From positions 310,001 to 374,000 of the forward strand of contig NZ_AP025518.1 in assembly GCF_022179545.1 (NCBI RefSeq): a stretch of DNA of 64,000 nucleotides, in the 5' to 3' direction. Origin of the DNA: Mycolicibacterium fortuitum subsp. fortuitum (lineage in GTDB: Bacteria; Actinomycetota; Actinomycetes; Mycobacteriales; Mycobacteriaceae). The stretch's first letter is position 1, and the number at the start of each line of letters is the position of its first letter. This document shows, one piece after another, positions 4,678 through 43,792 of this stretch. The position numbers were made by a program, and so were the translations under genes. The notes beneath the pieces are model-generated. The model was given only the letters and a program-made list of their open reading frames with translations, searched no databases and was not told the DNA's origin.

Positions 4678-4726
4678 TAGAGTAGTGCGAATGTTCGTCG
4701 CGACGGAAGAGCCCGGTAATGCCTGA
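4678..4726 (+). promoter_or_regulatory. Possible leaderless promoter and 11-codon uORF before jetA
   Basis: A TAGAGT hexamer at 4678-4683 fits a mycobacterial -10 box. It lies 7 nt before an ATG at 4691 that opens an 11-residue frame ([11 protein letters not shown]) ending at 4726. The uORF stop overlaps the first codons of jetA in another frame, so translation could be coupled. This is inferred from spacing only. Confidence 0.3.
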
Positions 4727-6194
4727 CGCAGGCACCGGTGGCACGTCGCTGGACCAGCTCTACCAGCTGCACCGCGAGGTGGCCGATTCACGTTCGTTGC
4801 GGCTGCTGGTGACCAACAATCTGGCCACCTATCTGACGCTGATGGAACGTCACCTGGACCGCGGCGCCAAGCTGACCGAGACCGACCTGGTGGTGCGGCT
4901 GGAACGCGACCTCGCCGACCTCGGCTCCGAGACCGAGCAGTCGGGCCTGTCACTCATCAAATACTGGGCCAGCCAGGGCTGGCTGCACCGGGTCACCGAG
5001 CAGTCCGGCGACACCGAACGCAATGTCTGTTACCTGACCTACGAGGCGCGGGCCGTGCTGGATTTCGCCCGCCGCATGCGCCGTGAGGACACCATCGCCA
5101 CCGGCGGGTCGATCTCGGGGATCGCCGCCGGGCTGCGCCGGGTGGCCGGTCAGGTCAGCAACGATCCGGATCGCATCCGTGCGGACATCGAAGCCGAGAT
5201 GGCCAAGCTGCGGGATGAATTGGAGGCCCTTGAACAGGGGCAGCGGCCCGAACCTGATCTGGTCGACGCCGAGGACGAGGCGCGGGCCATCGCGTTGCAG
5301 ATGGAGCAGATCATCTCCGACATCGGGCAGTACGGCGCCATGCTGAACCGCATCACCACCCGGTTGCTGGATGCTTCCGCCGATACCGATCTCGGGTACC
5401 GGGAGCGTCAGCGCCAGCTGTTCGACGACTACGAGTCCCTTTTCGCCTCCCGCGAAAGCGCCTCGTACACGGCGTTCACCCGGATGATCCAAGATCCCGA
5501 GCAGCGGGCGGCGCTGGTGGCCGACATCGAGGCGGTGACCCGGGAATTGCCGCACCTCGATCCCGACCTGCGTGAGGTGATGACAGGTTTCTTCAGCCTG
5601 GTCTCTGCGCAGACCGCCGAGGTGGGCCGCACCCGGCAGCGCTGCGCGCGACGGATCAAGCGATTCGTCGCCTCCGGAACCCTGGAGCACAGCCGCGGCG
5701 TTACCCGTCAGCTCAACGATGCCCTGACCAGTGCCCATGACTTGCTCAGCATCTCGTTGGCCGACAGTCGCATCGGCATCGAGGTGCCGCTGGTCCGTAC
5801 CGACTTCAATTCGATCGGCGCCGTGGCCTTCAAGATTCGTGACGCGATCCCGCCGTCACAGGCCGAGACCTCTCACGGCGAGGTGAACCTGTCGGCGTTC
5901 TCGGCCTTGGCGTCCCAGGTGGACGCCGCCGAGCTGGCCGATCTGGTCAACGGTGCGGTCGCCGCCGGTCCACTGGCACTGTCCGACGCCATCGGCATGC
6001 TGGACTCGGCCTACCTCGGTCATGTGATCGTGTTGTGGTCCTGGGCTCTCAAACAGCCACTGAGTCAACCGGAATCCGATGCCGAATCCGTTCGGGTGCG
6101 TTTCCGGTCGCTGGAGGGTGCCGACCGCGAAATCGAAATACCCCGATTGGTTTTCACCGAACCGATCCCTACTGCCAGTGAGAGCATGCTATGA
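4719..6194 (+). CDS. jetA: JetA/MksF-like kleisin subunit (DUF3375)
   Basis: 491-aa DUF3375 protein, the JetA component of Wadjet (MksF in Mks nomenclature). It begins with a winged-helix region ([31 protein letters not shown]), has an alpha-helical coiled-coil middle (about residues 150-215) and a C-terminal winged helix. In characterised systems JetA is the kleisin-like bridge that, with JetB, closes the JetC SMC dimer into a loop-extruding motor able to recognise small circular plasmids. The stop overlaps the jetB start by 4 bp (ATGA), so the two are translationally coupled. Length and gene order match type I Wadjet; the family call is strong. Confidence 0.9.
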
Positions 6195-6955
6195 CCGACA
6201 ACCCCGACACGTCGCCCGTCAAAGACGGGTCGATCGACTTCGATGCCCTACCGAGCATCGACGCCGTCGAACGGTCCACCAATCAGCGGCGTGCTCCGCG
6301 CTTCGACGGGGACGTCAGCGAGCTGCCCGACCGCGCCTGCTGGGCGCTGCAGCACCTGCTGTCGCGCCGGTACGTCAGCAAGGACAACCACTCCGAGCTG
6401 TGGTCGTGGGTCACCCGCTACCGCGCCGAACTCACCGTGCGGCTGTCGGAACTCGATATGCGGCTGTGCATCTCGGACGATCACGACATCGCCTACGTCG
6501 AGCAGGCGGATTACGAATCGCAGTGGCGGCGCCGGTTGCTGCGGCGGGAGACCCTCAACACCTACGATTCGATCCTGGCCCTGCACCTGGCCAAGCTCAT
6601 GCGCGCGGCGTCCCGTGACGAGAACGTGCTGATCAGCCGTGACGAGATCCATGAGCTGTTCGCCGGGGTGAACAACGACACCGATCGGGATACCGCCTCG
6701 TTCGACAAGCGGATCGACAACGCGATCGAGCGGCTCACCGACATCGAGATGCTCACGCGCAACCGCGAGGACGAGGACAGTTTCACGATCAGCCCGGTGG
6801 TCAACGCGATCATGACGGCCTCGATGATCACCGAGTTGCAGCAGCAGTTCGAGCAGCTCAAGCGCGTCGCGAACGGCACGGCCTACGATCCCGGTGCTTC
6901 CGACGATCCCGATGTATCCGAACGGCTCGAAGACGAAGTGGACGCCCATGGCTGA
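6191..6955 (+). CDS. jetB: JetB/MksE-like subunit (DUF4194)
   Basis: 254-aa DUF4194 protein, JetB/MksE. It is mostly helical, with the conserved segment [26 protein letters not shown] near residues 48-75 and a winged-helix-like region in the second half ([27 protein letters not shown]). In Wadjet complexes it binds the kleisin JetA and the JetC heads. It overlaps jetA by 4 bp and jetC by 8 bp, so the three genes form one operon. No defect is visible in the reading frame. Confidence 0.9.
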
Positions 6956-9900
6956 ACCGACCAACCAGTTCTCGCTGTCGCGCCTGCAGGTCATCAACTG
7001 GGGTGTGTTCGACGGATATCACTCGATCCCGTTCAGCCGGCACGGCACGCTGATCACCGGCTCCTCGGGCAGTGGTAAATCCTCACTGCTGGACGCGATT
7101 TCGCTGGCCTTCTTGCCGTCGCACCGCCGCAACTTCAATGCCTCCGGTGACACCACCGCAGCGGGCTCGGGCACCGGCAAGCGCACTGTCGACAAGTACG
7201 TCCGCGGCGCGTGGGGCGAGCGCCGCGAGGGCACCAGCCGCCAGATCATGTACCTGCGTGGGACCGGTCCGGCCTGGTCGGCCGTCGCGGTCACCTACAG
7301 CGACCGCACCGGACGCTCGGTCACCGGGCTGGTGCTCAAATGGCTGGCCGCCGAGAAGACCTCGGACCCGGGCAGCCGCTACTACCTGATCGATGCCGAC
7401 CGCGACATCTTCGGTCTGTGTAACCGCTGGGCGTCCAACGGGTATGACGCCGCGGTGTTCCGTGACGACGGCTGGACCGGCGGCCGCAGCGAGAGCCAGT
7501 ACCTGGCCCAGCTCTACTCCAGCATCGGTATTCGGGCCTCCGAGGCGGCCCAGCAGCTACTCGGCAAGGCCAAGTCGCTGAAAAGCGTTGGTGGGCTTGA
7601 ACAGTTCGTCCGCGAGTTCATGCTCGACGAGCCGGCCAGCCTCAGCGGTGTGGAAGAGGCGCTGGAGCAGATCAACCCGCTGGTCGAGGCCCGCGGACTG
7701 CTCGACGTGGCCCGGCGCAAACGCAACACCCTCGGCAATATCGCTGCGGTACAAGCGCGTTATGCCGACGAGGCTGCCAAGTTCGGGGTGATCGACACCA
7801 TCGACAACGCGATGATCCGCGATTACGTCGACCATGTGCGGCTGGCCCAGGCCGGTCCGGAGATCGCCAATCTCGACGATCAGATCACCCAGCTCGGCGC
7901 CCAGCGCGACGAGTTCGGGACCCAGCAGCGTCAGCTGAAGAACGAGCACAACGCACTTATGGCCCAGATCAACTCTGTGGCGGTAGATCTGGTTCCCCTG
8001 CAGCAACGGCTGACCGAGGCCGAGCGGATCAGCGAGGAAGTGTCGCGCCGCCGCAGCGCCTACGAGGAGAAGGTGACCTCACTGGGACTGACCCCGCCGG
8101 ACAACGGCGAGGAATTCTGGTCGCTGCGTGAGACTTTGATGGAGGAAGCCGACCGGCTGCATCGCGAGCTGTTCACCGGCAACCAACCCTACGTGGAGGC
8201 CTCGGCGAAGGAAGTCCGAGCCCGCGAGGCGCGCGAGAGCGTCGAAGCCGAGCTGGAACGGGTGCAGCGGCTGGGTTCCCCGCTGCCCAGAACCGAGTAT
8301 GAGATGCGGGCCCGCATCGCCCGAGCGCTCGACATCTCCGAACGCGATCTGGTCTACGTGGCCGAGCTCATGGAGCTCAAGCCCGACGAGTCGCGGTGGC
8401 GGCTGGCCGTCGAAAAGGTGTTGCGCGGGGCGGGATTACGCCTGCTGGTCCCCGACGCCTACATGGAACGGGCACTGCGCTTCGTCAACGAGAACGACAT
8501 GCGCGGCCGGATCCAGCTGCAGCACGTCCAGCACGGCGCGCAACTGCGTACCCCGGCTCCGGGCACACTGGCCACCAAACTGCAGCTGGCCGACCCGACG
8601 CACGACAGCGCCGTGGAGGCGCTCAACGTGATCGCCGCCGTCGGCGATTACGTGTGTGTCGATGGGCCGGGGGAGTTCACCGAACAATCCCGCGCGGTCA
8701 CCGACCAGGGGCTGCGCAAGGACAGCGGCCGGCTCTCGATCAAGGATGACCGGTCACGGCTGCGGCCCTCGGACTACATCTTCCTGGGTGGCACCGCGGC
8801 CAAAGTCGAGGCGCTGCAGGATGATCTGACCGCCGCGCAGGATGTCTACCAGGTGGCGCGAACGGCCCGCGAGCGACTGGATGAGCACCGCGGCCAGCTG
8901 CAATCCCGGGAACGGGCCTGCCGGGCGTTGTGCGACCAGTACATGCAGTGGAGCGACATCGACACCGATTCGGTCGACGCGATGCTCGAGCGGCTGCAGG
9001 GTGAACACGATTTGCTGGTCTCGGACAATCCCGACGCTGAGCGGCTGCAACAGCGGGCCGACGATTGTTGGGAGCGCGTCGAGAAGGTCATCCAGCAGAT
9101 CGGTTCGCTCAACGAACGCGAGACCACCCTGGACCGCAGGCGAACGGCGCTGCTTGAGCTGAGCGAGACCCTGACCGAGCGGCTCGGGTCCAGCGAGTTC
9201 CCGTCGCATGCCCGGGACACCATCGACGGCTATGCCGCCGACATCGCGCTGAACCTGGAGTTGCTCGAGCCCGAGCCCTACCGCAACGAACTGGTCCGCG
9301 TGATCGGCCGTGAGCGGGACCGATTGCGGGCGGACCGCAACCGTTCGCACGACGAGTTGGCCGGCATCATGGCCGCCTACGACAGCTCGTTCCCCGACGC
9401 GATCCCCAATGACAGCGATGTCTTCGACGAGCGTGTGCACGACTACGTGGCGTTGTGCCGCCGGATCGACGAGCGGGAATTGCCCGATGCCTACGAGCGC
9501 ATGCAGCGGCTGATCACCGAGCAGGCGCCCGGAGCGATTCTGAACCTGCACATGATCGCCGACAACGAGGCACGTCGGATAACCGAACAGATCGCTCGCG
9601 TCAACACGGGTCTGGGCGCGGTGGAGTTCAACCGCGGCACCCGGTTGACCCTGCACGCCGGGACCCGGCATCTGGCTGCCGTCGACGAACTGAACGAGAA
9701 GGCCCAGCGCATCTCGTCCCGGGTGTCGTTGGTGAGCTTCGGCGATGAGACCGCGATGTTCGAGCAGTACACCGACATCCTGCAGTTGCGAAAGCTGTTG
9801 GCGGGCAACACCCCCGAGGACCGCCAATGGACCCGCGATGCCCTCGACGTGCGTAACCGGTTTGTGCTGTATTGCGAGGAGCGCGACGCCGAGACCGGCG

Positions 9901-10310
9901 AGGTCATTCGGACCTACAGCAACTCCGGTGACAATTCCGGCGGTGAGCAGGAGAAGCTCATGGCCTTCTGTCTGGCCGGTGCGCTGAGCTTCAACCTGGC
10001 CAGCCCGGACAGCGACGATACCCGGCCGTTGTTCGCCCAGCTCATGTTGGACGAGGCGTTCTCCAAGTCGGATCCCCAGTTCGCTCAGCAGGCACTGTCG
10101 GCCTTCCGCAAGTTCGGCTTCCAGTTGGTGATCGTGTCGACCGTGCAGAACAGCACGACGATCCAGCCCTACATCGACAACGTGGTGATGGTGTCCAAGT
10201 CGGACGCGTCGGCACCCAACGCCCGGCCCGTCGCGTCGGTCACGTCAGCGTCGATCTCAGAATTCGCTGATCTGCGAAAGACCTCGGGTGAGGCGGTTGC
10301 GAGCGCCTAG
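6948..10310 (+). CDS. jetC: JetC/MksB-like SMC ATPase
   Basis: 1120-aa SMC-like ATPase of the JetC/MksB/EptC type. The Walker A motif is [18 protein letters not shown] near residue 35. Long coiled coils flank a hinge-like central region, and the ABC signature [11 protein letters not shown] and Walker B/D-loop [13 protein letters not shown] lie near the C-terminus. I use the ATG at 6948 because the first 18 codons of the longer frame overlap jetB and Walker A then falls at the usual distance. In M. smegmatis an orthologous system limits plasmid maintenance. The expected fourth gene jetD (TOPRIM-type nuclease) does not follow: the next genes are ESX-like. Confidence 0.92.
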
Positions 10311-10380: not shown

Positions 10381-10680
10381 GTGACGCCAACCCTGCGAGT
10401 AAACGCGCCGACGTTGCGCGATGTTGCCGCAGCGGAGAAATCGGTAGCTGCGGCCGCGTCGAATACCGGAGCCGCTGGGGCGCTGGGTGATGCGGCGGCC
10501 GGCATGGCGGGATTGCGCACCGCAGGTGGCTGTCAATCGGCCCAGGCGGTATTCGATGAAGTGAACCAGTCGGTGAGTGCGGCGCTGAACGGTCACTCGC
10601 AGAAGCTCGAGGCGGCAGCCCAGCAGTATGAGGCCACTGACGCCACCTTCGGTCGTCGATTGCAGCAGTTCAGTCGATGA
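10381..10680 (+). CDS. EspC/WXG100-like small secreted protein
   Basis: 99 aa, helical and Ala-rich, with the size and heptad-like pattern of the DUF2580/EspC or WXG100 families that are type VII secretion substrates or chaperone partners. It has no clear WxG turn; the region between the two predicted helices reads GLRTAGGCQSAQAV. The GTG start is preceded by a leaderless-type promoter. The stop overlaps the start of the next gene by 4 bp (ATGA), as usual for ESX partner pairs. The family assignment is from size, composition and context rather than a decisive motif. Confidence 0.65.
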   Translation: MTPTLRVNAPTLRDVAAAEKSVAAAASNTGAAGALGDAAAGMAGLRTAGGCQSAQAVFDEVNQSVSAALNGHSQKLEAAAQQYEATDATFGRRLQQFSR

Positions 10681-12512
10681 CGGTCACCGTCGAGCAGGTG
10701 GAGGCCTCGCAACCGGAGGCGCTGACCCGCGCCGGCGCTCAGATGGAGGCGGCTGCGGCGGCCTACCAGGCCCAGATCGACCGGCAGCAGGCCAACCTGG
10801 CCAAGCTGAGGTCAGGATGGCAGGGCACGGCTTCAGATGCGGCAATTGCCGACGGGCAGAAGACCCTTGAGCAGATGCGGCGCGTGCACGAGGCCATGGT
10901 TCGAGTGCAAGCTCCTCTGCAGGCCGGCGGCGCGCAGTTGACCCAGATCAGATCGTCGGTGTTGCAGGCCGTGGCGCAGCTGGAAGGTCAGGGCTGGCAG
11001 GTCGCTTCGGACGGCACGGTGTCGGTGCGGCCGGGCAGCGCTCTGGATTTCTACGCTCGGCTCAGCCCGGTCAACGCGTTGATGGTCCGTATGCTGGCGG
11101 TTCGCAACACCGCTGCGGTGAAAAAGTTGTTGGCTCAATTCGACGCGGCCGATCAACAGACCGACGAAGCAGTCCGGCAGGCAGTGGCCGGCCTGACCAA
11201 CACACCGAGCAGCGGGCCCGGCGGGGGCGCACCCACCCCTGGTGACAAGGCCGAGCCACAGATCCCCGACACCAAGGACCCTCACGCGATCCATGATTGG
11301 TGGCTTTCGCTGACCCCGGAGCAGAAGGCGCAGATGCTCCGCGATCATCCGGACAAGATCGGGAACCTCAACGGCATCCCGACCGGTGTGCAGAGCGAGG
11401 CCAATCTGAAGATCCAGAAACAGGATCTGGCCCGGGTCAACTCTGCGGCTGAGGCGCATCATGTCAGCGTCGACGAGGTGCGGGCGCACCCGGAGAAGTA
11501 CGGTCTGACCGCCACAGACATCACGCGGTACCACAATGCGGTCGAGGTGCAGAAGGCGCTGGACCGCTATGGCCGCGACGCCAAGGACAGTAGGGGTGGG
11601 ACCCCAGAGATTTTCTTGAAGAAGTACGACCCGGAGGCGTTCGGCGGCAAGGGCGCGGCGGCGATCGCGATCGGTAACCCGGATACCGCCAACAACACCA
11701 CCGTGAAGGTGTCCGGTCTCACCACCTCGGTGAAGGGCGGGTCGTTGGACAACCCCGACCCGGTCAACCTGTACAACGAGACCAGCATGGCCGACCCGAG
11801 CAAGTCGAACTCGGTGGTGATGTGGATGGGCTATGACGCGCCGGACGACCAGGCGGTCGCGGTGCCCAACATGGCCCGCCACGGTGCTGAACTGCTGGCC
11901 GCCGATGTCAATGCGCTGGACGCCACCCACCTGGGTTCCAGCCACTTGACTGTGATCGGCCATTCCTACGGCTCGACCACTGTGGCCGATGCGGCGGCCG
12001 GGTTCGGTATGCGCGCCGACGACATTGTGCTGATCGGTAGCCCCGGAACCGATCTGGCGAAATCGGCGGCCGATTTCCACTTGCCTCCGGGCGGCCATCT
12101 GTACGTCGGGGCGGCCAGCACTGACCCGGTTACCTACCTCGGTCGAGAACACATGAATGCACCCGGCCTGGGCCTGGGCACCGACCCGTCGATCGAGGGG
12201 TACGGATCAACCCGATTCGACGCCGAATCGTCGTTGCGCGACTACCGCACTGATCACAGCAGGTACTTTGAGCAGGGCTCGGAGTCGTTGTACAACATGG
12301 CCGACATCGCCTCAGGGCACGGTGATCGGTTGCAACAGAATGGGATGACCGCCGAACACCGCTCAGATCACTGGTATGCCAAAGTTCCGGTGGTGATACC
12401 GACCCCGATGGGCCCCATCCCGGTGCCTGGTACCTCGATCACCATCCCGGGTGTCGACCAAGCCTTCGACCCTGAGGCGGATCGGCGCGCTCAGGACAAC
12501 CACCGTCACTAG
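10677..12512 (+). CDS. WXG100 domain-alpha/beta hydrolase (DUF1023-like) fusion
   Basis: 611 aa. Residues 1-100 form a WXG100-like helical hairpin with the turn RSGWQGTASDAA. A Pro/Gly-rich linker near residue 180 is followed by a DWWLSLTPEQKAQMLRDHPD segment and then an alpha/beta hydrolase resembling DUF1023. The nucleophile elbow is VIGHSYGSTT (catalytic Ser near residue 429). A likely Asp lies in GAASTDPVTYLG and a His further on. Proteins of this layout are thought to be type VII-secreted esterases or effector-like enzymes. It is translationally coupled to the small ESX-like gene upstream and followed at 23 bp by a lipoprotein gene. Confidence 0.8.
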   Translation: MTVTVEQVEASQPEALTRAGAQMEAAAAAYQAQIDRQQANLAKLRSGWQGTASDAAIADGQKTLEQMRRVHEAMVRVQAPLQAGGAQLTQIRSSVLQAVAQLEGQGWQVASDGTVSVRPGSALDFYARLSPVNALMVRMLAVRNTAAVKKLLAQFDAADQQTDEAVRQAVAGLTNTPSSGPGGGAPTPGDKAEPQIPDTKDPHAIHDWWLSLTPEQKAQMLRDHPDKIGNLNGIPTGVQSEANLKIQKQDLARVNSAAEAHHVSVDEVRAHPEKYGLTATDITRYHNAVEVQKALDRYGRDAKDSRGGTPEIFLKKYDPEAFGGKGAAAIAIGNPDTANNTTVKVSGLTTSVKGGSLDNPDPVNLYNETSMADPSKSNSVVMWMGYDAPDDQAVAVPNMARHGAELLAADVNALDATHLGSSHLTVIGHSYGSTTVADAAAGFGMRADDIVLIGSPGTDLAKSAADFHLPPGGHLYVGAASTDPVTYLGREHMNAPGLGLGTDPSIEGYGSTRFDAESSLRDYRTDHSRYFEQGSESLYNMADIASGHGDRLQQNGMTAEHRSDHWYAKVPVVIPTPMGPIPVPGTSITIPGVDQAFDPEADRRAQDNHRH

Positions 12513-20977: not shown

Positions 20978-23872
20978 CTAGTTCGACGTGGTCGGCTCTG
21001 GCTCCGTTTCGAGCAGTTCGCGTACCGAGGCGCGGGTTCCGTACGGGCGCAACATGCGGCTGGCCGGCCGGGGCCGCACGATCTGTGGCCACCAGAACCA
21101 CCGGCCCAGCAGCGCCGCGATGGACGGTGTCATGAACGATCGCACGATCAGGGTGTCGAAGAGCAGGCCGACACCGATCGTGGTGCCGATCTGTCCGAGG
21201 ACGATGAGATCGCTGAAGATGAACGAGGACATGGTGGCGGCGAACACCAGGCCGGCCGCGGTCACCACCCTGCCGGTGCCGGCCATGGCGCGGATCACGC
21301 CGGTTTTGAGCCCGGCCCCGATCTCTTCCTGGAACCGGGATATCAACAGCAGGTTGTAGTCGGCACCGACCGCCAGCAGCAGGATGATGGCCAGCGCGAG
21401 CACGATCCAATACAGCTGGATGCCGAAGATGTACTGCCACACCAGAACCGAAAGGCCGAAGGACGCGCCCAACGACAACACCACAGTCCCGACGATGACC
21501 ATCGCGGCGACCAGGCTGCGGGTGATGAACATCATGATGAGCAGGATGAGGCTGATCGCCGCCAGTGCGGCGATGAGCAGATCGTATTTGGCGCCGTCCT
21601 GGATGTCCTTGTACGCCGAGGCGGTTCCGGCCACATAGATCTTGGCGTCCGACAGGGGAGTGGCCTTGATCGCGTCAAACGCGGAGTCCTTGAGGGCGTC
21701 GATGTGTGAGATGCCTTCCGGCGTAGCGGGGGTGCCCTCATGGGTGATGATCATGCGGGCGGCCTTGCCGTCGGGCGAGAGGAACAGTTTCAGGCCGCGT
21801 TTGAAGTCGGGGTTGTCGAAGGCCTCCGGCGGCAGATAGAACGAGTCGTCGTTCTTCGCCGAGTCGAAGGCCTGCCCCATGGCGGTCGCGTTCTGAAGCG
21901 CCTCCTGGGACTGCGAGTTGGTGCCCGCCGTGGTCGCGTAGTTCGACAGGGTCAGGTCGCGGTTGCGTTCCTGGATGGCGATCTGCGGCGGGAGCAGCGC
22001 GACCAGTTTCGGCTGGAGAGCGTCGAGCTTGTCCAGACTTGCCGTGATCTGGCCGAACTGATCACTGAGTTTGTCGATGCCGTCGAGGGCGTCGAACACC
22101 GATCTCAGCGCTGCGCACATGGGGATGTCGAAACAGTGCGGCTCCCAGTAGAAGTAGTTGCGCAGCGGGCGGAACTGATCGTCGAAATTGGCGATCTTGT
22201 CGCGCAGGTCGTTAACGATCGCCACGGTGTCGTGGAACGCCTGGGTCTGCTCATGGGTAGCGGCAGCGCTGGCCTGCTGCAGCGCGACCTGCTGCTTGAG
22301 GATGTTGATGGTGTTGGACAGCTCGCCTGCCTGCTTGAGCAGATCCGCCGCGCGGTCCTGCTGGTAACCCAGATTCATGATCTGGCTGGCACTTTGCGCG
22401 CTGATCTGAAACGGGATGGAGCTGTGCTTGATCGGTGTGCCCAAGGGCCGGGTGATCGACTGGACCAGGGCGATGCCGCGGGTGTGCAGCACGGCTTTGG
22501 CGACGCGTTCGAGGACCAGCATGTCGGCGGGGTTGCGCATGTCGTGATCGGTTTCGATCATCAGTAGCTCGGGGTTGAGCCGGGCTTCCGAGAAGTGGCG
22601 GGTGGCGGCGGTGTACCCGATGTTGGCCGGTGCCGATTCCGGTAGGTAGGGCCGGCCGTCGTAGCTGGTCTTGTAGCCGGGGAGGGCCAGCAGACCGACG
22701 AGCGCGATCAGACACGACACCACCAGGATGGGGCCGGGCCACCGCACGATCGCGGTCCCGATGCGGCGCCATCGTGGTGCACGTGGGTTGCGTTTGGGCT
22801 CAAGGAGTCCGAACCGGCTGCCGATGGTCAAGACCGCGGGCCCGAGTGTCAGCGCGGCCACCAATGTCACCAGCACGCCGATGGCGGCCGGTATGCCCAG
22901 GGTCTGGAAGTAGGGCAGCCGGGTGAAGTGCAGGCAGGCGACGGCGCCGGCGATGGTCAGCCCGGAGCCGACGATGACGTGCACGGTGCCGCGAAACATG
23001 TCGTGATACGCGGCTTCTCGGTCCATGCCGCGGCTACGCGCTTCGTGATAGCGCCCGACGATGAAGATGCCGTAGTCCGTGCCCGCGGCTATCGCCAACA
23101 GGGTCAGCAGGTTGGTCGAATAGGTGGACAGGCCGATGACCCCGTAATGCGCGAGCGCGGCGACGATGCCGCGTGCGGCCGCCAGTTCGATCAGGACCGT
23201 CACCAGCATGAGCAGCATCGTGATCAGCGATCGGTACACCACGAGCAGCATCACTGCGATCACCAAGAAGGTTATGCCGGTAACCTTTTCGGTGCCCTCG
23301 CTGCCGACCTCGAAGTTGTCGGTGATCAGCGGTGCGGCGCCGGTGACGTAGGCCTTGACCCCCGGCGGTGGCGGGACGCTCGCGACGATCTCGCGGATGG
23401 CGTCGACCGATTGGTTCGACAGCGCCTCGCCCTGGTTACCGGCGAGATAGACCTGCACCAGAGCGGCCTTGCCGTCCTTGCTCTGGGATCCGCCGGCGGT
23501 GAGCGGGTCGCCCCAGAAATCCTGGATGTGTTCGACGTGCTTGGTGTCCTCGGCCAGCCGCTTCACCAGAGTGTCGTAGAAACGGTGGGCGTCATCGCCC
23601 AGGGGTTGTTCCCCTTCGAGCACGATCATGGCCGCGCTGTCGGAGTCGAATTCGTCGAAGACCTGGCCGATGTGGCGCATCGCCATGGTCGATGGCGCGT
23701 CGGGAGCGTTCAATCCGACCGAGCGAGCTGCACCGACGACTTCCAGTTGTGGCACAAGGATATTGGTCAGCGCGGCGATGGCGACCCACAGCAGGACGAT
23801 CGGCACGGCCAGGGCACGGATGGTCCGCGCCGTCCGGGAGCCTTCGGCAGGTTCGGGACTGTGGGCACTCAT
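20978..23872 (-). CDS. MmpL-family RND transporter
   Basis: About 964 aa. The architecture is standard MmpL: TM1 near residues 18-38 ([20 protein letters not shown]), a periplasmic loop, a cluster of helices ([17 protein letters not shown]), a second long loop rich in coiled-coil-forming Gln/Leu (about residues 430-680), and a C-terminal helix cluster with [10 protein letters not shown] use the ATG at 23872, which overlaps the mmpS stop by 4 bp; the 55 codons upstream are the mmpS gene in another frame. MmpL/MmpS pairs export lipids or siderophores, or act as drug efflux pumps. The substrate is unknown. Confidence 0.9.
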
Positions 23873-24315
23873 GCGGACTTGTCCAAGCAGGCGATGTAGC
23901 CGTTCACGTTGTCGGTGGACCTTTCGTCCTTGACCACACCATTGACGGTGATGCGGCACCCGATGTAGTCGCCATCGCCTTGTGCCCGCAGGTCGGCGAA
24001 CAGGGTTGGGTCGTCGGTGACCAGCATCTGCGACCACGGCAGGGAGACGTCCTCGGCCCGTTGCGGCTGGGCGTCGATGTCGAGGTAGTTGATGGTGGCA
24101 ACCGAGCCAGGCGGGCCGAACACTTCGAAGAGAACCCGCTTCGGGTTGTAGCCGGTGTTCTCCAGAGTGTCGGCGCTGGGCCGCGACACCTCGTTGTCGG
24201 AACCGAAGATCCCGTGCAACCGACTGACGGTAAAGGCGACGACGGCCACCACGAGGACGGCCACGATCACCGTCCAGCGTCGCCTGACCAGGCTTCCTAC
24301 CGAGATCCCCTGCAT
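23869..24315 (-). CDS. MmpS-family membrane protein
   Basis: 148 aa. One N-terminal membrane helix ([25 protein letters not shown]) is followed by an extracytoplasmic beta-rich domain with [27 protein letters not shown] and CRITVNG, all family landmarks of MmpS. The ATG at 24315 has an AAAGG-type site and gives the usual MmpS length; the longer frame crosses the operator. It is the accessory partner of the overlapping mmpL and is divergent from a TetR regulator. Confidence 0.88.
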
Positions 24316-31020: not shown

Positions 31021-34000
31021 CTAGTCCGCTGCCGCCGGCTCCGACGGTTCCGTCGTCGCCTCAGCCGCCTCCGCATCAGGCAACTGCGCCACCAGATATT
31101 CGGCGAGCCCACCGATGGTCGGGTAGTCGAAGACCGCCGTCGCGTTGAGTGTGAACTTGCCGCCGAACTGGGTGTGCAGCCGGTTGCGGAGCTCGATCGC
31201 CATCAGCGAGTCGGTGCCGAGATCCAGGAAGCGGCTGGTCGCGGCAGGCGGTGAGGCGAGCCGCAGGAAGTTCTGCACCTCCTTCTGCAGGAACTCGGTG
31301 ACGAACCCGGCACGCTGCTGAACCGGGATCTCGAGCAGCTGCTTGAGAACCTCGCTGTCGCCGACGACCTCTCCGACCGCACTCGGCAACACGAGATCGA
31401 GGATCGGTGGCCGGGAACTGCCCAGCACCTTCGCTGCCCGCTGCCAGTTGGCCTTGATGACCGCGGCCTGACCGGCGCCGTTGGCGACGACCTCGGCCAG
31501 TGCGGCCAACGCCGCCGAGGGATCCAGCGGAATCAGGCCCTGGGCACTGATATTCGCGGTCGCCGCTTCCGAGGAGGCCATACCGCCCTGACCCCACGGG
31601 CCGAAGTTGATGCCGGTCGCGGGCAGGCCCTGCGCCCTGCGCTGTGCGATCAGACCGTCGAGCAGCGCATTGGCCGTGGCGTAGTTGGCCTGGCCCGGTG
31701 AACCGAACAAGCTTGACACCGAGGAGGACACGATGAAAAAGTCCAGATCGTCAGCCTTGGTCAACCGGTCCAGATACTCGGCACCGAAGGCCTTGGGCGC
31801 CAACGTTGTCCGGAACCGACCCAGGTCCTGTTGCCCGAGCAGCGCGTCATCGAGCACGCCCGCCAGATGCACGACACCGCCCAGCGGCGCGACCTCACCA
31901 CGGATCCGCTCCAGGAGCTTCGTCACCTCGGACTCTTCGCCGACATCTGCGGTGAACACGTGGACGCGGGTCTTGTAACGCTCGGTGATCTCCTCGATCA
32001 ACCGTTGAGCGTCCGCATCGGGTTCACGGCGGCTGGTCAGGACGATGTCCCCGGCGCCGAGCTGCGCCAGATACGACGCAGTGTGCAGACCGATTGCACC
32101 GAGACCGCCGGTGATCAGATAACTCCGATCAGCCTTGGGCTGCAGCGGGTTCGAGATCTGCACCACGATCTTGCCGATGTGCCGTGCCTGCTGCATGCGA
32201 CGGAATGCGGACCTCGCCTCCGTCAGCGGATAGATCTCGGCGGGTAGCGGCTTCCAGACACCCACCGACGAGCGCTCGCGCGAGGAGTCGACAGCGGCAG
32301 CCAGTCCGTCCGAAATCTCAACGAGCAGGTCGCGGATGCGATCCGGCTCGGTGAACATCACCGTGTCCAGCGCGACGATCTCGTAGGCGATGTCGGGCCG
32401 GGTCTCGGCCATCTTCTCCGCTGACCAGATGTCGCGCTTGGCGATCTCGGCGAAGCGGCCGTTCTGGGCGGTGGCCTTCAGCGTCGCCTCGATGAAGCCT
32501 TCGCTCGTCAGGCTGTTGAGCACCACGTCCACGCCCTCGCCATCGGTGTCCGCCAGGATCTGATCGGCGAAATCCGTGGTGCGCGAGTCGTATACGTACT
32601 TCACACCCAGCTTGCGCAGGGTTGCGCGCTTGAAGGTGCTTGCCGTGGCGAACACCTCGGCGCCGCACTGCTGAGCCATCTGGACCGCCGCCAGACCCAC
32701 ACCACCGCTGGCGGCATGGATCAGCACCTTGTCCCCGGGCTTGAGCTGTGCCCAGTCGAACGACAGCCTGACCGTGAGCGCCGCAGCCGGAATGGTCGCG
32801 GCTTCCACCGCGCTCACCCCGTCGGGGATCGGCGCGAGGAACTGGGCGGGCACGTTGAACCGGCTGGAGAACGCGCCCTGCATGGAGCCGTAGACGCGCT
32901 GGCCTACCTCCACACCCGTCACACCTTCACCCAGTTGCGTGACCACACCGGCGAAGTCGCCGCCGATCGGCCCGGGATCGCCCGGGTAGAGACCGAGCAC
33001 GTTGAGCACGTCGCGGAAGTTGAGGCCGGCGGCCTCGACCCGAACCTGCACATAGCCCTCGTCGGGTGCCGGTACGTCCTTCTCGGTGATCCGCAGGTTG
33101 TCGATCGCGCCGCGTTCGGTGGGCGCCAGGACGTAATCGCTGCCGCGGGGCACCGTGAGATGACCGCTGCGCGACCACGGCAACAGCCGCGACGCCAGCA
33201 GCTTGCCCTGCCGTACCGCGAGTTCGGGTTCTTCGACCGGCGTTGCCAACAGGCCGGCCAGTGCTTGCACGGCCTCCGGTGATCCGTCGCTGTCGACGAG
33301 TTTGGCCCGCAGCGCGGGTTCCTCGTTGATCGTGGTGCGCCCGAATCCCCACAGCGCTGCCTGCACCGGATCCACCGGCTCGCCCGATTCGGTGGCCACG
33401 GCCCGTTCGGTGACGATCCACAGTCCGTTGGGCAGTTTCAGGCTGCCGCCCTGCACCGTGTGCACGGCGCTCAGCAGATTCTCGATCTCCGACTCGAGGC
33501 GAGCACTGGTCTCGGTGCTCGTCTCATGTGCGCCTGGCGCCTTGGCGCGCCAGACGACACCGGCGAACGGCATGCCCCGCTCGGCGGCCTGTGCCAGCAC
33601 CTGCCCCAGGAGTTCTGGATCTGCGGTGCGGTTGAGCGGAATGCAGCCCGGCACCTTGGTGGCGAGTTCGTCGAAGCCCGCGACCAGCCAAGTGCCGCTC
33701 GGGCTTTCGGCCGCACCGTCGGACGGCGGCACCGGTACCTCGTGCCAGCCCAGCGTGTACAGCAGCCGGGTGGCGTCGCCGCCGAGGCCGCGAAGCAATG
33801 CTTCGCGGGGTGCGCGCTTGACCGTGAACTCGCGAACGCCGCCGAGGTAATGGCCGTCCCGATCGATGTACTCGAGGTCGAACACCTGGGTTTCGTTGTT
33901 GAGCTCGGCCTCGTGCCACTTCGCGCGGCAGTAGAACCGCCGAGGCATCTTCTCTTTCAACGTGACCTGCCCGTAGCGCAACGGCAGGAACAGGTCGTTG

Positions 34001-37000
34001 ACCCCCTGCTCGGCCGCCAGAAGAGCCGGGAACGCCGGGAAGGCAACGCCCGTGCACAGGTCCATCAGGACCGGGTGCATCGGCTCGGTGCCCAGTTGTT
34101 CGGCGAGTTCCTCTCCGACCAGGATGTCACCGATCGCCTCGCCCTCACCGAGCCACAAGGACTTCAGGGAACCGGACCAGTTTGGGCCCCAGGCCAATTC
34201 CAGGTCGGCGAAGGTCTCGAACAGCTCTTGCGGACGCATGCGTTCCAGCCGTTCGATGGCCTCGTCGACGGGATCGGTTTCGGCGGTCGGCTCCTCGGAA
34301 GAGTCGCCGAGACCGCTTACCACTGTGCCTTCGGCGTTCAGCGACCAGTCGACGTCGCGTTCTCCGTAGGGACGGCTGTGAACCTGGAACTTCCACTCTC
34401 CGCCTGTCTCCAGCGGGTGCAATGTCAGCTGCACTTCGCGAGAGCTCTTCTCGGGCAGGATGATCGGCTCGAAAAAGAAGACGTCCTTGGCGTGGGCCGG
34501 GGTTCCGACCGCGGCCAGCGCCATCGCGGCGTACGTCGCGCCGGGGACGACGACGGTGCCGTAGATGACGTGGTCGGAAAGCCACGGCTGCGTCTTGACC
34601 GAGATCCGGCTCGTGTAGATCGAGTCGCCGGAAGCCAGGTCCTTGGCCGCGCCGAGGATTCCAGTACCACCGCTGCCGTCGAAGCCGGAGCTCGTGATCG
34701 CCGAAGTCTTGGGCCAGAAGCGGCGGTGCTGGAACGGATAAGTCGGCAACTCGACCTTGTGTGCGGGCCGGCGTTGCACCGCAGCGAAATCGGGCCGGTG
34801 CCCGCCGACGTATGCCGCGGCCAGTGCGTCGGCGATCTGACGTCCGTCGGCGATGCCTTTGCGGAGTGAGACGATCGCCCGCGGTGCGGCCAGGTGCTCC
34901 GGCCAGACCTGAACTGCCGCACTGGTCAACACCGGTTGCGGTCCGATCTCCATCAGCACCGAGCAGCCCAGGGCCGCAACCGTACGCACGCTTTCGGCGA
35001 ACTGCACCGGCTGACGTGAATGCCTGCGCCAGTACTGGGCGTCGAGCGGGTTCTGGGCGGTCAGGATTGCTCCGGTCCGGTTGCAGACCAGGGGCAGCGT
35101 CGGTGCGGCGAACTGCACCTGCGCCGCGTACGCCTCGAATTCGTCGAGCACCGGGTCGAGCAGTTCGGAGTGGAAGGCGTGGCTGGTTTGCAGCCAGGTG
35201 CAGCGGACGCCCTCGTCACCGAACTGAGTGACGATCTCCTCGAGGTCGTCGCCCGGGCCGGAGAGCACGGTGTTGGGCCCGTTGTAAGCCCCCACCGAAA
35301 CCCGCGGGTACTTGTTTGCGATCTCCTCGACGTGCTTGGGATCGGCGAATACCGCCACCATGCGGCCGCCCTCGGGCAGGCTGCCGAACAGCCGGCCTCG
35401 CTCGGCCATCAGCCGGGCACCGTCCTCCAGGCTGAAGACCCCGGCCACGCATGCCGCCGCATACTGGCCGACGCTGTGTCCCAGCACGACGTCGGGCTGG
35501 ATGCCCCACGACTGCCACAACCGCGCCAGGCCCATCTCCACGGCGAAGAGTGCAGGTTGTGCGTACGAGGTGTGCCGCAGAGTCTGTGCCGCCTCGGCAT
35601 CGCGGGCGAACATGACGTCCAGCAGCGGCAGCATGCCCTTCACCGCGTCGGCACACTGTGTCACCGTCTCGGCGAAAACCGGCTGGGTGTCGAACAATTC
35701 ACGGGCCATTCCCGGGTACTGGCTGCCCTGGCCGGTGAACAGCCAGGCAGTCGTCGGGTGGTTCGTGTGCTCTCCGCGCACCACGCCGGGCCGTGTCCTG
35801 TTCTCGGCCAGGTCGGCGAGAGCCAGTCGCGCCTCCTCGATCGAGTCCACGACCAGTGCGGCCCGGTGCTCGAAGTGCGACCGTCCGGTCCCGGCGGTCA
35901 GGCACACACCGGCCAGATCGGCGTCCGGGTGGGCGCTGAGCCACGTCTCGTACCGCTGTGCCAGTGCCAGGAGCGCTTCGGGTGACCGCGCGGACAATGC
36001 CAGCACGCTCACCTGTTCATCAGGAGCCTGCGCCTCGGTCGAAACCTCCTCGGCGGGCTGTTCCTCGGGAGCGGCGGCGGGTCGTACCGGCGCCTCCTCG
36101 ATCAGCACATGTGCGTTCGTGCCGGTGAACCCGAACGAGCTCACACCGGCGCGGCGTGGCCGGCCGTTGGTCTGCCAAGGAGTCGCCTTGTCCACCACCT
36201 GCACCGGTAGTGAATCCCACGGGATGTGCGGCGAAGGGTTCTCGAAGTGCAGGCTCTGCGGCAGCACCTCGTGCTGTAGCGACAGCACGACCTTGATCAG
36301 ACCCGCTGCACCCGAAGCGGATTCGGTGTGACCGATGTTGGTCTTCACCGAACCCATCAGCAACGGTCGGTCGGTGTCGCGCGAGCCGGCGTACGCGGCG
36401 GCAGCAGCCTGGACCTCGATTGGATCGCCCAGCGGGGTGCCCGTCCCGTGTGCTTCGAGGTAATCGACGTCGCCGCCGGTCCAGCCGGCGCGGGCCAGTG
36501 CCGTGCCGATGAGTCGTTGCTGTGCACCACCGTTGGGCACGGTCAAGCCGCTGGACGCGCCGTCCTGGTTGACCGCGCTGCTGGGGATGACGGCGCAGAT
36601 CCGGTCACCGTCGCGCTCTGCGTCGCTGAGCCGCTTGAGGACGAGAATGCCGCAGCCCTCACTGCGCACGTAGCCGTCGGCGGAGGCGTCGAACGTCTTG
36701 CACCGCCCGACGGGGGAGAGCATGCGTGCGCGGGAAGCGGCGACCACCGTGACAGGTGAGAGCAGCACGTTGACGCCGCCGGCCAGCGCCAGGTCGCAAT
36801 CGCCGGAGTGCAACGCCTGGCATGCCTGGTGGATCGCCACCAGCGCCGAGCTGCATGCGGTGTCGACCGCCATTGCCGGACCTTCGAATCCCAGCGCGAA
36901 GGCCACCCGGCCGGAGATCGCGTTGAGTGCGTTGCCGGTGATGAAGTACGGCTCGATCTTGTCGATCGACTCCGACGACAGCAGATGCGCGTACTCGTTT

Positions 37001-40000
37001 GCGGCGACGCCGGCGAAGATGCCGGTGCGGCTGCCGCGCAGCTCGGCCGGCGAATACCCGGCTCTTTCCAGTCCCTCCCAGACCGTTTCGAGCATCAGTC
37101 GCTGCTGGGGCTCGATCCAGACGGCCTCACGCGGGGAGATGCCGAAAAACTCGGGGTCGAATCCGTCGATGCCGTCGAGGAATCCGCCGAAGCGGGTATA
37201 GGTCTTGCCCGCCGTTTCTGGATCCGGATCGTAGAACTCGTCGATGTCGAACCGGTCTTCGGGGACTTCGCGGATGGCGTCGACGCCTCCGGACAACAAC
37301 TCCCAGAAGGCTTCCGGATCGGGTGCGCCGGGGAATCGGCACGAAACCGCGACGATGGCGATGGGGTCGTCCGTACGTGTGGTCACCGAAGCGGGTCGCG
37401 ACGACGGCTTGGCTTGCTCGTTCAGACCCAGCACGTCGCCGAGCAGATACTCGGACACATCGGAGATGCGCGGGTGGTCCATCACCAGCGTGATGGGGAT
37501 TTCCGCGCCCACTCCCTGTTCGATGCGCCGACGCAGTTCGACGGCCATCAGCGAGTCCATGCCGAGGTCGAAGAACCCTGCGTCCTCGCGGATCTCCGAG
37601 GGGTCGACGCGCGTCACCTCTGCCACCGAGTCGCGCAGGTAGTCGGTCAGGAGCTTCTTACGCTGCTGGACCGGAGCATTGGTCAGGCGCTCGACCAGCT
37701 GTGTCTTGCCTGACGCGGTAGTCGGTGCCGAAAGTTCCGCCGGGGCCTCGGTTTCCAGCTCTGCCAGGAATCCTCTGCGGCCGGCCTGCTGGTACAGCGG
37801 TAGGAAACGCGACCAGTCGATGCGGGCCACGACGCCCTGCGCCGGGCCCTGGGCCGAGGAAACGGCGACGGCGTCGGCCAAGCCGGCCAGCGCATCGGCG
37901 GGCGCCAGCGTCCGGACACCACGTTGGTCCAGCCGGGCACGGGACTCCGCATCGGCCATGCCCGTGGCCCACGGGCCGAAGTTGACGCTGGTCCCGGGGA
38001 TCTTCTGCTCGCGCAGTCGCCAGGCCAGACCGTCCAGAAACGCGTTGGCCGCACCGTAGGCGGTCTGGCCGTATCCGCCCCACACCGAGGCGATCGACGA
38101 AGTGGTGATGAAGAAGTCGAGCTTCTGCTCCGCCGCCGCCTCACTCAGATGCCAAGCACCCCAGACCTTTCCGGCGAAAACGCGATCAACCTCCGCGTCG
38201 TCCAGCTCGCTCAGGGGCGTGGTGCCGAGTTCACCCGCAGCGTGCACGATGCCGGCCAGCGGCGGCATCTCGGCGGCCACGGTGCTCAACAGTCGCGCCA
38301 CGTCGTGAGCGTCGGCAACGTCGGCGGTCACGGCGCGGATGTCGCAGCCGTGCTGATCGCTCAGTGCGGCGATGCGTTGCGCGGCCGCCTCGCTGGGGTC
38401 GCGACGGCTGGTCAGCACCAGATGTCGGGCGCCATGGGCGGCCAGATGCCCGGCGATCTCCAAGCCGATCGATCCGAGTCCGCCGGTAACCAAATACGTT
38501 GCACCACTACGGAGTTCGAGAGGCGTACCGTTCGGCAGGTCTTCCCGGCGGACCAGCCGGGGGACATACACGGCCTGATCTCGCACCGCGATCTGGTCTT
38601 CCCGCCGGCCTGTGTCAGCCGATGTGGTGACCCGGTTGAGCACCGCGGTCCATTCATCGGTAGTGCCTTCCGAGAGGTCGGCCAGCCCGCCCCACAGCTG
38701 AGGGAGCTCGAGTGCTGCGGCGCGACCGAAGCCCCACAGGGCGCTCTGTTCCGGGGCCACGGTGTCTGCATCGGCGACGTGCTGCGCGCCGCGGGTGACC
38801 AGCCAGATGGTCGCCTTCACGCCGGCGTCGGCCGCAGCGCGGAAGAGTCGCCTCGTCCCAGCCAGGATCTGGTGCTGCATCCGCAGCAGCGTCCGCATCG
38901 ACGATGCCGTCTTGTCAGCCGGTTCCCCGTCCACGGCGGCGATGTCGAGGATGTGGAGCGTCGAGCCGTCCGCAGCTGCCGTGCGCAGTTCGTTCTCAAG
39001 TTGTCCGGCGGCGGCGTCGGTCGTCGGCAACGCGAGGAAGCGGTACTGCTGCCCACGTGAGGTCAGGACGTCGAGCAGCGGCCGGACCCCTGGACTTTCC
39101 TCACCGATGAGCAGCCAGGTCGACGTCTCCGCGGAGCTCGCGCCCGAGAGCGGCGTGACTGCTTTCTCCCAGCGGAACTCGTAACGGTCATCGGCGATGG
39201 ATTGGGTCGAGCGTTGCCGGTTGTGTTGCGCCGCCAGTTTGGTCAGGACGCTCAGCGTCTGTCCATCGTCGCCCGCACCGTCGAGCAGGGCCGCGAGTTC
39301 CTCGAGGCGGCCGTCTTCGAGTAGACGAACGGCCTGGGTGCGGGGACCGGCAGCATGCTGACGCTGGTTGGGCTCTTCCCGATTGTCGCGGTACCAGTAC
39401 TGGCGGTGCTCGAACGGGTAGGTGGGCAGGTCGAGCTTGCGGGCGTGCGCTTGCCGGAAGGCGCTGAAGTCGGGCAGGTGGCCCAGCACGTAGGTGTCGG
39501 CGAGGGCTTCGGTGATCTGCCGCTGGTCGTCGGTGTTGGGGCGCATCGAGGCGATCACCCGCGGTGCGGTGGCCTGGTCGGGCCATGCCCCCAGCGCGGT
39601 GGCCGTGAGGACCGGACGTGGTCCGATCTCGACCAGCAGCTTGCAGTTCATGTCGGCCAGGGTGCGCACGCTCTTGGCGAACTCCACCGGTTGGCGGGCG
39701 TGGCGGCGCCAGTAGGCACCGTCGAGTTTCACGCTCCGGCCCAGCGCGGCGCCGGTGCGGTTGTCGATGAGGATCCGTTGCGGTGCCTGGTACGTGAACC
39801 GGTTTGCGTACGATTCGAACTCGTCGAGGATCGGATCCAGCAGCGCCGAGTGGAAGGCGTGGCTGGTTTCGAGCCAATCGCAGCGGACGCCGTCGGAGGT
39901 GAGTCCGGCGACCGCCCGCTCCAGTTCTTCGGCGGGGCCCGACAGCACGGTGTTGGCGCCGTTGTAGGCGGCGACCGACAGGGCGGGGAACTCGTCGACG

Positions 40001-42054
40001 AGGTTCTCTACCCGCTCGGCAGAGGTGAACACCGCGACCATGCGGCCACCGGCCGGCAGGCTCCCGAAGAGGCGTCCGCGTTCGGCCATCAGCAGGGCGC
40101 CGTCCTCCAGACCGAACACGCCCGCCACGCATGCGGCCGAGTACTGGCCGACGCTGTGGCCCAGAACCACGTCGGGTTCGAATCCCCACGATTGCCACAG
40201 CCGCGCCAGACCCATCTCGACGGCGAACAGGGCGGGCTGTGCGTAGGTGGTCTCGCGCAGCGTCTCCGGTCCGTCCAGATCGAAGATCACGTCCAACAAC
40301 GGTTTGTCCAGCACATCGGCGACGGCGGCCGCGCAGCGCTTCACCGTTTCGGCGAACACCGGCTCGGAGTCGAACAGCTTGCGGGCCATCCCGGCGTACT
40401 GGCTGCCCTGGCCGGTGAACAGCCAGGCCGTCTTGGGCCTGTCGTGGGACTCGCCGCGGATGAGGCCCGGCGCCGGGCGGTCGTCGGCGAGTGCACCGAG
40501 CAGTTCGATCGCGGAATCCCTCGAATCGACCACCAGCGCGGCACGGTGCTCGAGGTGGGCCCGTCCCACCCCGGCGGTGAAGCACACGTCGGCCAGGGTG
40601 GCCTCGGGGTGCGCGCTCATCCAACTGCGGTATTGCTCGGCGAGCTGCACCAATGCGGCCGGGGTCCGCGCCGAGAGGGGCAGGATGTCGAACCGCTCCG
40701 GTCTGGGCCTCTCCACGGGGTTCGCTACCGCCGGTTCAGGTGCTTCCTCAAGGATGACGTGGGCGTTCGTGCCGGCGAAGCCGAACGAACTGACACCGGC
40801 GATGCGGGGCGCGCCGTTGCGTTCCCACGGGGTGGCCTCCTTGACCACCTCCACCGCGAGCCGATCCCACGGGATGTGCGGAGACGGGGTCTGGAAGTGC
40901 AGGTGCTTGGGCAGCAGCTCGTTCTCGAGCGACAGGACGACCTTGATGACACCCGCGATGCCTGCGGCGGCCTCAAGGTGGCCGATGTTCGTCTTGGCCG
41001 AGCCGATCAGCAGCGGCCGGTCGGGTTCGCGGCCGGCGCCGAGGACAGCCCCGGCGGCCTGGGCCTCGATCGGATCGCCGAGCGAGGTGCCGGTGCCGTG
41101 CGCTTCGAGGTATCCCACGTCGCTGGGTGCGAGGCCCGCGCGCTTGAGGGCATCGGCGATGACGCGCTGCTGAGCGACGCCGTTGGGCACGGTCAGGCCA
41201 CCCGACGCGCCGTCCTGGTTGATCGCGCTGCCGCGGATCACGGCCCGGATGTGGTCACCGTCGCGGAGGGCGTCTTCGAGACGCTTGATGACGATGACGC
41301 CGCAGCCTTCGCCGCGGACGTAGCCGTCTGCGGCGGCGTCGAACGTCTTGCACCGCCCGTCGGGTGCCAGCATGTGCGCACTGGAGAAGGTGATCATGGT
41401 GGCGGGTGTGAGCAGGACGTTCGCGCCACCGGCCAGGGCGAGGTCGCACTCTCCTAGGCGGAGTGCTTGGCACGCCTGGTGAATAGCGACGAGCGACGAA
41501 CTGCATGCGGTGTCGACGGCGACCGAGGGGCCCTGAAGACCCAGCCGGTAGCTGATCCGACCTGCTGCTGCGGCGTTCGACGTACCGATGGCCATGTACG
41601 CCTCGATCTCGGGGTAAGTCAGCTCGTCAGAAGCCATTCCGAGGTAGTCGTGCGTGGCCAATCCGACGAACACGCCAGTGTTGGTGTCGGCCAATGCTGT
41701 TGGCGCGGTACCCGAGTGTTCCACGGCGCGCCAGGCGGTTTCCAGCAGCAGTCGATGCTGCGGGTCCATCAGCCTGACCTCGCGTGTTGACATACCGAAG
41801 AACGGAGCGTCGAATCCGGTTACGTCATCGACGAAACCGGCCCGACGGGTCACCACCTTGCCCGGTGTGCCGGGGTCCGGGTCGAAGAATTCCTCGACGT
41901 CCCAGCGGTCCTCGGGCACCTCGGAGATCGCGTCACGGCCCGCTTTCAGCAGGTCCCAGAAGCCATCGGCGTCCGGGGCACCTGGAAAGCGCGCAGCGTA
42001 GCCGACGATGGCAAAGCGTGCGGACTGTTCGTTCGGATGTTCAACGGATTTCAT
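31021..42054 (-). CDS. pks: Bimodular type I polyketide synthase of the trehalose polyphleate locus
   Basis: About 3677 aa from the ATG at 42054, which has GAGAGGA 8 nt upstream (the longer frame to 42102 has none). Module 1: KS (DTACSSSL, Cys about 178), AT (GHSVGQY, Ser about 628), KR (TGGLGSIG about 1184), ACP (LGMDSL, Ser about 1495). Module 2: KS (DTACSSAL, Cys about 1728), AT (Ser about 2188), DH ([10 protein letters not shown], His about 2490), ER (GDFAGVV and [11 protein letters not shown]), KR (TGGLGAIG), ACP (LGTDSL). Both ATs have HAFH, indicating malonyl use. There is no thioesterase. Context with papA3, mmpL10, PE-PPE and fadD23 identifies it as the synthase of unbranched polyunsaturated phleic-type acids. 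Module 1 lacks a dehydratase. Confidence 0.93.
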
Positions 42055-43726: not shown

Positions 43727-43792
43727 CGGAGAGCAAACAATGGCCATGGATTTTTCGCGTTGCTCCGGCCTCCGGGCGGAGGTGAGGGCAGC

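Follow-up and report, generated by a model that had tools for sequence, protein, structure and literature searches.

The described systems closest to the jetABC operon considered here are the type I Wadjet system JetABCD (known as MksBEFG in Corynebacterium glutamicum and as EptABCD in M. smegmatis), MksBEF of Pseudomonas aeruginosa and MukBEF of Escherichia coli. The second of these reportedly works without the nuclease MksG. One review names only the three-gene MksBEF form (PMC4255302), and P. aeruginosa PA14 has been described with a four-gene mksFEBG operon (PMC10123090). In Wadjet systems, extrusion of circular DNA by the motor has been reported to proceed up to a stall, after which JetD cuts the circle (PMC12287153, PMC10586767). 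MksBEFG of C. glutamicum has been described as making no contribution to chromosome folding and seems to act on low-copy plasmids, and loss of eptC in M. smegmatis helps plasmid maintenance (PMC7022226, PMC10123090). The operon analysed here lies in a stretch of 64,000 nucleotides of Mycolicibacterium fortuitum subsp. fortuitum (NZ_AP025518.1, 310,001-374,000, forward strand; hereafter the window, with coordinates counted from 1), which belongs to a genome assembled as one contig of 6,406,072 bases with a completeness of 100. It encodes the three motor subunits of a type I Wadjet and is a member of a widespread, selected and nuclease-free variant of this family. A literature search of titles and abstract openings returned no report of a JetD-free Wadjet lineage in mycobacteria, and a mention could still be found in Panas 2014 (EptABCD) or Petrushenko 2011 (MksBEF).

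A complete Wadjet motor without JetD

An initial annotation, made from the letters of this stretch, had described an intact three-gene operon of DUF3375, DUF4194 and SMC type with the Walker A, signature and Walker B motifs all in place, a description in which Pfam, PADLOC and the motifs themselves agree (Table 1). JetA matches PF11855 (DUF3375) with 351 bits and the PADLOC JetA1 model PDLC00459 with 833 bits, JetB matches PF13835 (DUF4194) with 140 bits and the JetB1 model PDLC00472 with 376 bits, and JetC matches the Pfam families AAA_29 and SbcC_Walker_B as well as the JetC1 model PDLC00514, the latter with 1996 bits. JetB also passes the cut-off of the MksE family (PF21980, 35.7 bits against a cut-off of 27), far below the 139.8 bits that it obtains with DUF4194. 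The overlap between jetA and jetB amounts to 4 bases. For jetC, the ATG at 6948 is the most likely start, which places its first 8 bases within the end of jetB, and because of these overlaps the three genes look translationally coupled. In subunit families, gene order, gene overlap and ATPase motifs, the operon is alike to type I Wadjet, with M. smegmatis EptABCD set beside it by description.

Comparison with solved structures leads to the same family. The JetC sequence of the window matched four chains of the PDB at E <= 0.001, all four of them JetC, with 8as8 and 8dk2 as the nearest entries and the E. coli and P. aeruginosa PA14 Wadjets as the source of the closest solved chains. A profile of 14 JetC sequences gave five matches, four to JetC and a fifth to another protein at E 0.00097. 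Neither search matched MukB at E <= 0.001. The JetB profile retrieved the JetB chains of the PA14 and E. coli Wadjets and reached MukE at E 0.96 only. JetA had no significant PDB match by sequence; the first seven PDB matches of its AlphaFold model, of modest confidence (mean predicted local distance difference test score of 64), are chains of Wadjet JetABC entries, six of them at E <= 0.001 with low template modelling scores to the query (0.20-0.26), and their lengths suggest that they are JetA. The operon shares with MukBEF of E. coli the common kleisin-KITE-SMC plan, but MukB is not the closest SMC protein to its JetC.

What separates the locus from described type I Wadjets is the nuclease: JetA, JetB and JetC with its ATPase motifs are all present, and no JetD was found in the operon or in the genome. 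The two Pfam families of the TOPRIM nuclease JetD, PF09983 (JetD_C) and PF11795 (DUF3322), were unmatched across the complete 6.4 Mb genome, in searches that returned matches with both families in the control genome of C. glutamicum, and a profile of 11 JetD proteins found nothing at E <= 1 anywhere in the window with all six frames translated; JetD assignments throughout are based on this profile and on Pfam. A second jetABCD was not found in the genome by the DUF3375 search, which gave one match only. The absence of JetD that had been noticed in the window thus extends to the entire genome, and the whole-genome searches that the initial annotation had proposed, for the JetD families and for a second jetABCD, also exclude a jetD lying just outside the window. 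The genome encodes ScpA of the housekeeping SMC-ScpAB complex.

Table 1. Genes and motifs of the jet operon, in window coordinates
Feature	Coordinates	Strand	Description
jetA	4719-6194	+	kleisin subunit, DUF3375, MksF-like, 491 amino acids (aa)
jetB	6191-6955	+	KITE subunit, DUF4194, MksE-like, 254 aa
jetC	6948-10310	+	SMC ATPase subunit; 1120 aa with the ATG as start, 1138 aa with the listed GTG at 6894
Walker A of JetC, GSSGSGKSS	7059-7085	+	residues 38-46; from sequence; kept in the clade
ABC signature of JetC, SGGEQEK	9936-9956	+	residues 997-1003; from sequence
Walker B of JetC, LMLDEAFS	10041-10064	+	residues 1032-1039; from sequence
RFDGD motif of JetB	6299-6313	+	residues 37-41; from alignment with the N-terminal region of PA14 JetB

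The JetD-less form is widespread and under selection

Of the 148 Mycobacterium genomes sampled first, 83 matched DUF3375 (81 over the cut-off) and 22 matched JetD_C. In a larger sample, 201 of 396 Mycobacterium genomes contained the JetC subfamily to which the window belongs (PDLC00514, E <= 1e-200), 68 contained JetD_C and 35 contained the two together; this survey counts JetC alone rather than whole operons, and it scored two candidates per genome, so that extra JetC copies may be missed. For the 35 double-positive genomes, contig and position were compared or the JetC beside JetD was inspected. A jetD adjoins the subfamily JetC in only eight of the 201 genomes, two of which have jetC split over two frames and a third of which holds a copy lacking jetD in addition to the one bearing it; in the remaining 27, the JetD is part of a different jet operon, stands as a lone fragment, or is located on a separate contig or at a great distance. 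A copy with no adjacent jetD (JetD-less hereafter) is present in 194 of the 396 genomes. In draft genomes a jetD beyond a contig end could escape notice as a neighbour, and is still counted by the whole-genome search. No JetD match was obtained anywhere in 166 of the 201 genomes, that of the window included.

The subfamily loci that were fetched number 141, with jetB in all of them and jetA in 139, and 135 of them are JetD-less, some strains being represented twice. A search by tblastn with the five JetD proteins of the closest JetD-bearing relatives found no jetD remnant in the 135 JetD-less sequences at E <= 0.01, and recovered all 11 control loci that hold JetD. Among named relatives, the best 80 of 137 are all without JetD in the DNA examined, which spans at least 2 kb after jetC in 78 of the 80, and the nearest of the named genomes, at a JetC identity of 95-98%, include M. 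peregrinum, M. senegalense, M. septicum, M. houstonense and M. setense. The JetD-less species M. vaccae and M. aurum also figure among the named relatives. The suggestion that this subfamily might never carry jetD fails for the wider subfamily, eight of whose 201 genomes have it, and holds for every examined locus of the window's own branch. At the level of the order, PDLC00514 matched 58 of 298 genomes at E <= 1e-30; only 17 places exceeded 1500 bits, of which 16 belong to Mycobacterium and the remaining one, G224, to another genus of the family, and the next score was 749.

In the close relatives of the window (16 loci, 120 pairs for each gene), the median pairwise ratio of nonsynonymous to synonymous substitution rates (dN/dS) is 0.105 for jetA, 0.099 for jetB and 0.054 for jetC. 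The corresponding medians of neighbouring genes are 0.091 for a fabG-like gene and 0.094 for a MaoC-like gene (15 loci), and 0.183 for the upstream methyltransferase (14 loci), jetC thus falling below the fabG-like neighbour. These values point to strong purifying selection on the JetD-less jet genes within this group. In 131 of the 135 JetD-less loci, a single frame contains Walker A, signature, Walker B and a VQN stretch in full, and six of these 131 carry the Walker A variant GGSGSGKSS; the other four have interrupted jetC frames, and one of these has jetA in pieces as well. Residue D995, two positions before the signature serine, is Asp in 99% of the JetD-less loci and Ala in the five JetD-bearing relatives examined.

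Several individual loci depart from the arrangement seen in the window. Other genes are inserted between jetA and jetB in some JetD-less operons (such as L063, 9664-11330, and L065, 7488-10208), one of those in L063 being an RDD-family gene encoded on the opposite strand, and jetA and jetC lie several kb apart in two genomes (G081, G146). Lone JetD_C fragments were seen at 9179-9838 of L237 (219 aa, with no JetC in the 19 kb fetched around it) and at 7149-7520 of L238 (123 aa, with no JetC in the 11 kb fetched around it), and the two genomes concerned (G049 and G121) have a JetD-less operon on a contig other than that of the fragment. The 220 kb M. fortuitum plasmid CP089609.1 carries a distant JetABC of its own (L242, 3773-9342), whose JetC is about 24-28% identical to that of the window over part of its length; its DUF3375 gene is annotated as two frames, a hypothetical gene of 196 aa without a Pfam match follows, and JetD was not found in the 5.9 kb after this JetABC.

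History of jetD loss

In a tree of 28 JetC proteins, a JetD-bearing operon (L245) stands at the base of the mycobacterial branch. It is followed by a group that contains the JetD-bearing L248, L089, L246 and L247 together with a JetD-less pair (L087, L088), and then by a JetD-less core. To this core belong the window together with its fortuitum-group relatives, a second large group that is 56-60% identical, and L222, a member from another genus. The JetD-less branch spans JetC proteins that are about 40% different. Since JetD-bearing relatives sit both at the base of the JetD-less branch and beside it, loss rather than an original state is favoured, and the operon most likely derives from a JetABCD ancestor that lost jetD. 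Two losses probably took place within the mycobacterial branch, one in the branch of the window and a separate one in another. A single origin was rejected: the approximately unbiased test excludes one JetD-less clade in the mycobacterial branch (p 3.7e-05), and further operons in which no JetD was found lie outside it. Two of these, L224 and L225, belong to another genus of the family and have jetABC with no JetD found, and L072 and L239 are single cases of the same kind; because of such operons, loss of JetD seems to be recurrent. An operon similar to L224 and L225, with jetC in pieces, was also observed in a plasmid record of Tsukamurella tyrosinosolvens (L243).

A conserved motif in JetB

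In the Wadjet of PA14, it has been reported that JetD contacts an IFDR motif near the N-terminus of JetB (PMC10586767). A profile alignment, in which the PA14 JetB letters before residue 44 are not displayed, puts the RFDGD of the window at the IFDR-bearing region, and the two motifs are putatively equivalent. The pattern R-F-[DES]-G-D is found in 135 of 135 JetD-less loci. In the JetD-bearing relatives of the subfamily, RFDGD is seen in four of five and RFEQD in the fifth. Among 20 JetB proteins from other JetD-bearing operons the motif was not seen in 14, three have xFDGD and three frames are not clearly JetB; since it goes unseen in so many of them, RFDGD does not simply indicate that JetD is used. 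It may serve either a job unrelated to JetD or the docking of something else. The columns invariant in the five JetD-bearing relatives and nearly absent from the JetD-less loci are few (8 in JetA, 7 in JetB and 17 in JetC) and not placeable on the JetD interface, and simple decay of that interface is disfavoured by the retention of the JetB motif.

Neighbouring genes and the search for a replacement

The initial annotation had also considered that the operon might have acquired a different effector, and had noted that 70 bases separate jetC from ESX-like genes, a gap that is confirmed (the EspC-like frame starts at 10381). As an adjacent gene, such an effector finds no support. In 48 JetD-less loci analysed with a simple gene caller, the genes that come next downstream represent 32 families and their upstream counterparts 30, the next gene runs in the same direction in 20, and the most recurrent downstream family reaches eight loci, which correspond to the shared site of the fortuitum group; no neighbour is common across the 48. 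The ESX-like genes themselves were rejected as a replacement, the EspC-like gene being recovered (E <= 1e-20, more than 80% of length) in three and the Abhydrolase_8 gene in four of the 16 close-relative loci, the window included. Median dN/dS for these two genes (window 10381-12512) is 0.42 (3 pairs) and 0.28 (6 pairs), respectively. In eight of nine close-relative loci other than the window, the homologue listed directly behind jetC is the MaoC/fabG-like pair, apart from a short remnant of the third gene in L054.

A scan for a defence island covered 30 loci that lie outside the fortuitum group and 136 of the 141 proteins listed as neighbours there, one protein with a bad coordinate and four that overlap jet genes having been left aside. 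An island was rejected, PADLOC matches being scattered, with no family (of the 25 listed out of 31) represented by more than 4 of the 136 proteins; they include RecD-like helicases (3), MADS-type genes (1 to 3) and one DEDDh exonuclease. Among Pfam families (the top 25 of 138 by count, down to two members), the largest is TetR with 8 of 136. No recurrent nuclease or defence partner is found among the families listed for these proteins. A partner may be encoded far from the operon.

Elsewhere in the window, 31021-42102 (minus strand) encodes a protein of 3693 aa with two sets of polyketide synthase domains, and this gene together with those at 43760-46786 (plus), 48025-49791 (plus) and 20978-24037 (minus), among which are an AMP-binding enzyme and two MMPL transporters, likely forms a lipid or polyketide locus.

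What a nuclease-free motor may do

We predict, with a probability of about one half, that JetD-less JetABC works on its own as a loop-extruding motor, one that probably restrains small DNA circles and leaves them uncut. By analogy with its characterised relatives, JetABC would load on DNA and extrude loops with ATP; a small circle would be extruded completely, whereupon the motor would stall as in Wadjet, and in the absence of JetD the circle would be held compacted instead of being cut, so that plasmids would replicate or segregate less well or be kept at a lower copy number. We prefer an accessory role, directed against extrachromosomal DNA, over a core chromosomal one because of the patchy occurrence of the operon, its many genomic positions and its coexistence with SMC-ScpAB. 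The link of the related C. glutamicum and M. smegmatis systems to plasmids is in line with this preference. A more specific version is put forward tentatively: in half of mycobacterial species, JetABC would reel in and hold small circles without a nuclease, these circles would fail to replicate or segregate, and the retained JetB motif would serve a lineage-specific partner other than JetD.

Several considerations weigh against this prediction. To our knowledge, no JetD-free JetABC that has been tested restricts plasmids. The retention of the JetB motif in all 135 JetD-less loci would be odd if nothing binds there, and the operon is not always whole, two JetD-less loci (L124, L130) having no jetA in the 8 kb before jetC. 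The JetD-less core forms one side of a branch with a support of 94/74, under the star level of the tool, which makes the number of jetD losses uncertain, and jetD may instead have been regained in the JetD-bearing branches. Purifying selection would also be expected from a condensin role. In the Wadjet systems that have been studied, furthermore, cleavage is attributed to the nuclease JetD (PMC12287153).

That condensin role is the strongest of the alternatives, a serious one although less likely: JetABC without JetD would act on the chromosome as MksBEF does, as a Wadjet motor that has been domesticated to fold chromosomes alongside SMC-ScpAB. Like MksBEF, the operon provides three subunits without a nuclease and coexists with SMC-ScpAB, and its strong purifying selection and largely intact ATPase motifs are in keeping with such a function. 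However, it is absent from about half of the genomes and occupies dozens of genomic positions, unlike a core chromosome factor, and its host already possesses SMC-ScpAB, as indicated by ScpA. Sequence also places the operon with Wadjet, JetB scoring as DUF4194 well above MksE, JetC finding Wadjet JetC and not MukB in the PDB, and the relatives at the base of the branch carrying JetD.

It is less probable again that JetABC cuts or kills plasmids with a different partner, encoded elsewhere and docking on the retained JetB motif. The retention of this motif, and its alignment with the region of PA14 JetB that contacts JetD (to which it would be equivalent), speak for such a partner, but the JetD-less loci share no neighbour, no recurrent nuclease appears among the families listed for their neighbour proteins, and the motif is missing from view in most of the other JetD-bearing operons. 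Borrowing of a JetD from elsewhere in the cell, for instance from a second jetABCD or from a plasmid, is very improbable. JetD is encoded somewhere in 28 of the 194 genomes with a JetD-less operon, and an M. fortuitum plasmid does carry another JetABC; however, the proportion is not raised over the 40 of 202 genomes without such an operon (Fisher p 0.18), so that the JetD-less operon shows no association with a JetD encoded elsewhere, most genomes of the subfamily have no JetD match at all, and the plasmid operon is itself without JetD in the stretch examined. The use of a distant JetD, which the initial annotation had left as an option, finds no support in this genome, where no JetD was found. 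Finally, a decaying Wadjet relic is hardly credible, the missing jetD, the four interrupted jetC frames and the two loci without a nearby jetA being set against median dN/dS values of 0.05 to 0.11, ATPase motifs in one frame in nearly all loci and a JetD-less branch as deep as about 40% JetC divergence.

Implications for Wadjet biology

Counts of defence systems may score motor-only loci as plasmid-cutting Wadjet, a risk that arises because the PADLOC JetA1, JetB1 and JetC1 models match the JetD-less genes strongly. A PADLOC survey has reported Wadjet in 662 of 665 genomes of the M. kansasii complex (PMC11316565), in which JetD may or may not accompany the motor. In M. kansasii, eptC, which may or may not be of the JetD-less kind, has been suggested as a possible cause of the poor plasmid uptake (PMC12502714). 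Wadjet is a shape-sensing plasmid cutter in which motor and nuclease work jointly, and the JetD-less branch separates both jobs in nature, allowing the function of the motor alone, and the restraint of plasmids by loop extrusion free of cutting, to be asked about directly. A review has speculated on the origin of a condensin from a defence system (PMC10586767), and the JetD-less branch also bears on whether the MksBEF and MukBEF condensins arose likewise from such a system.

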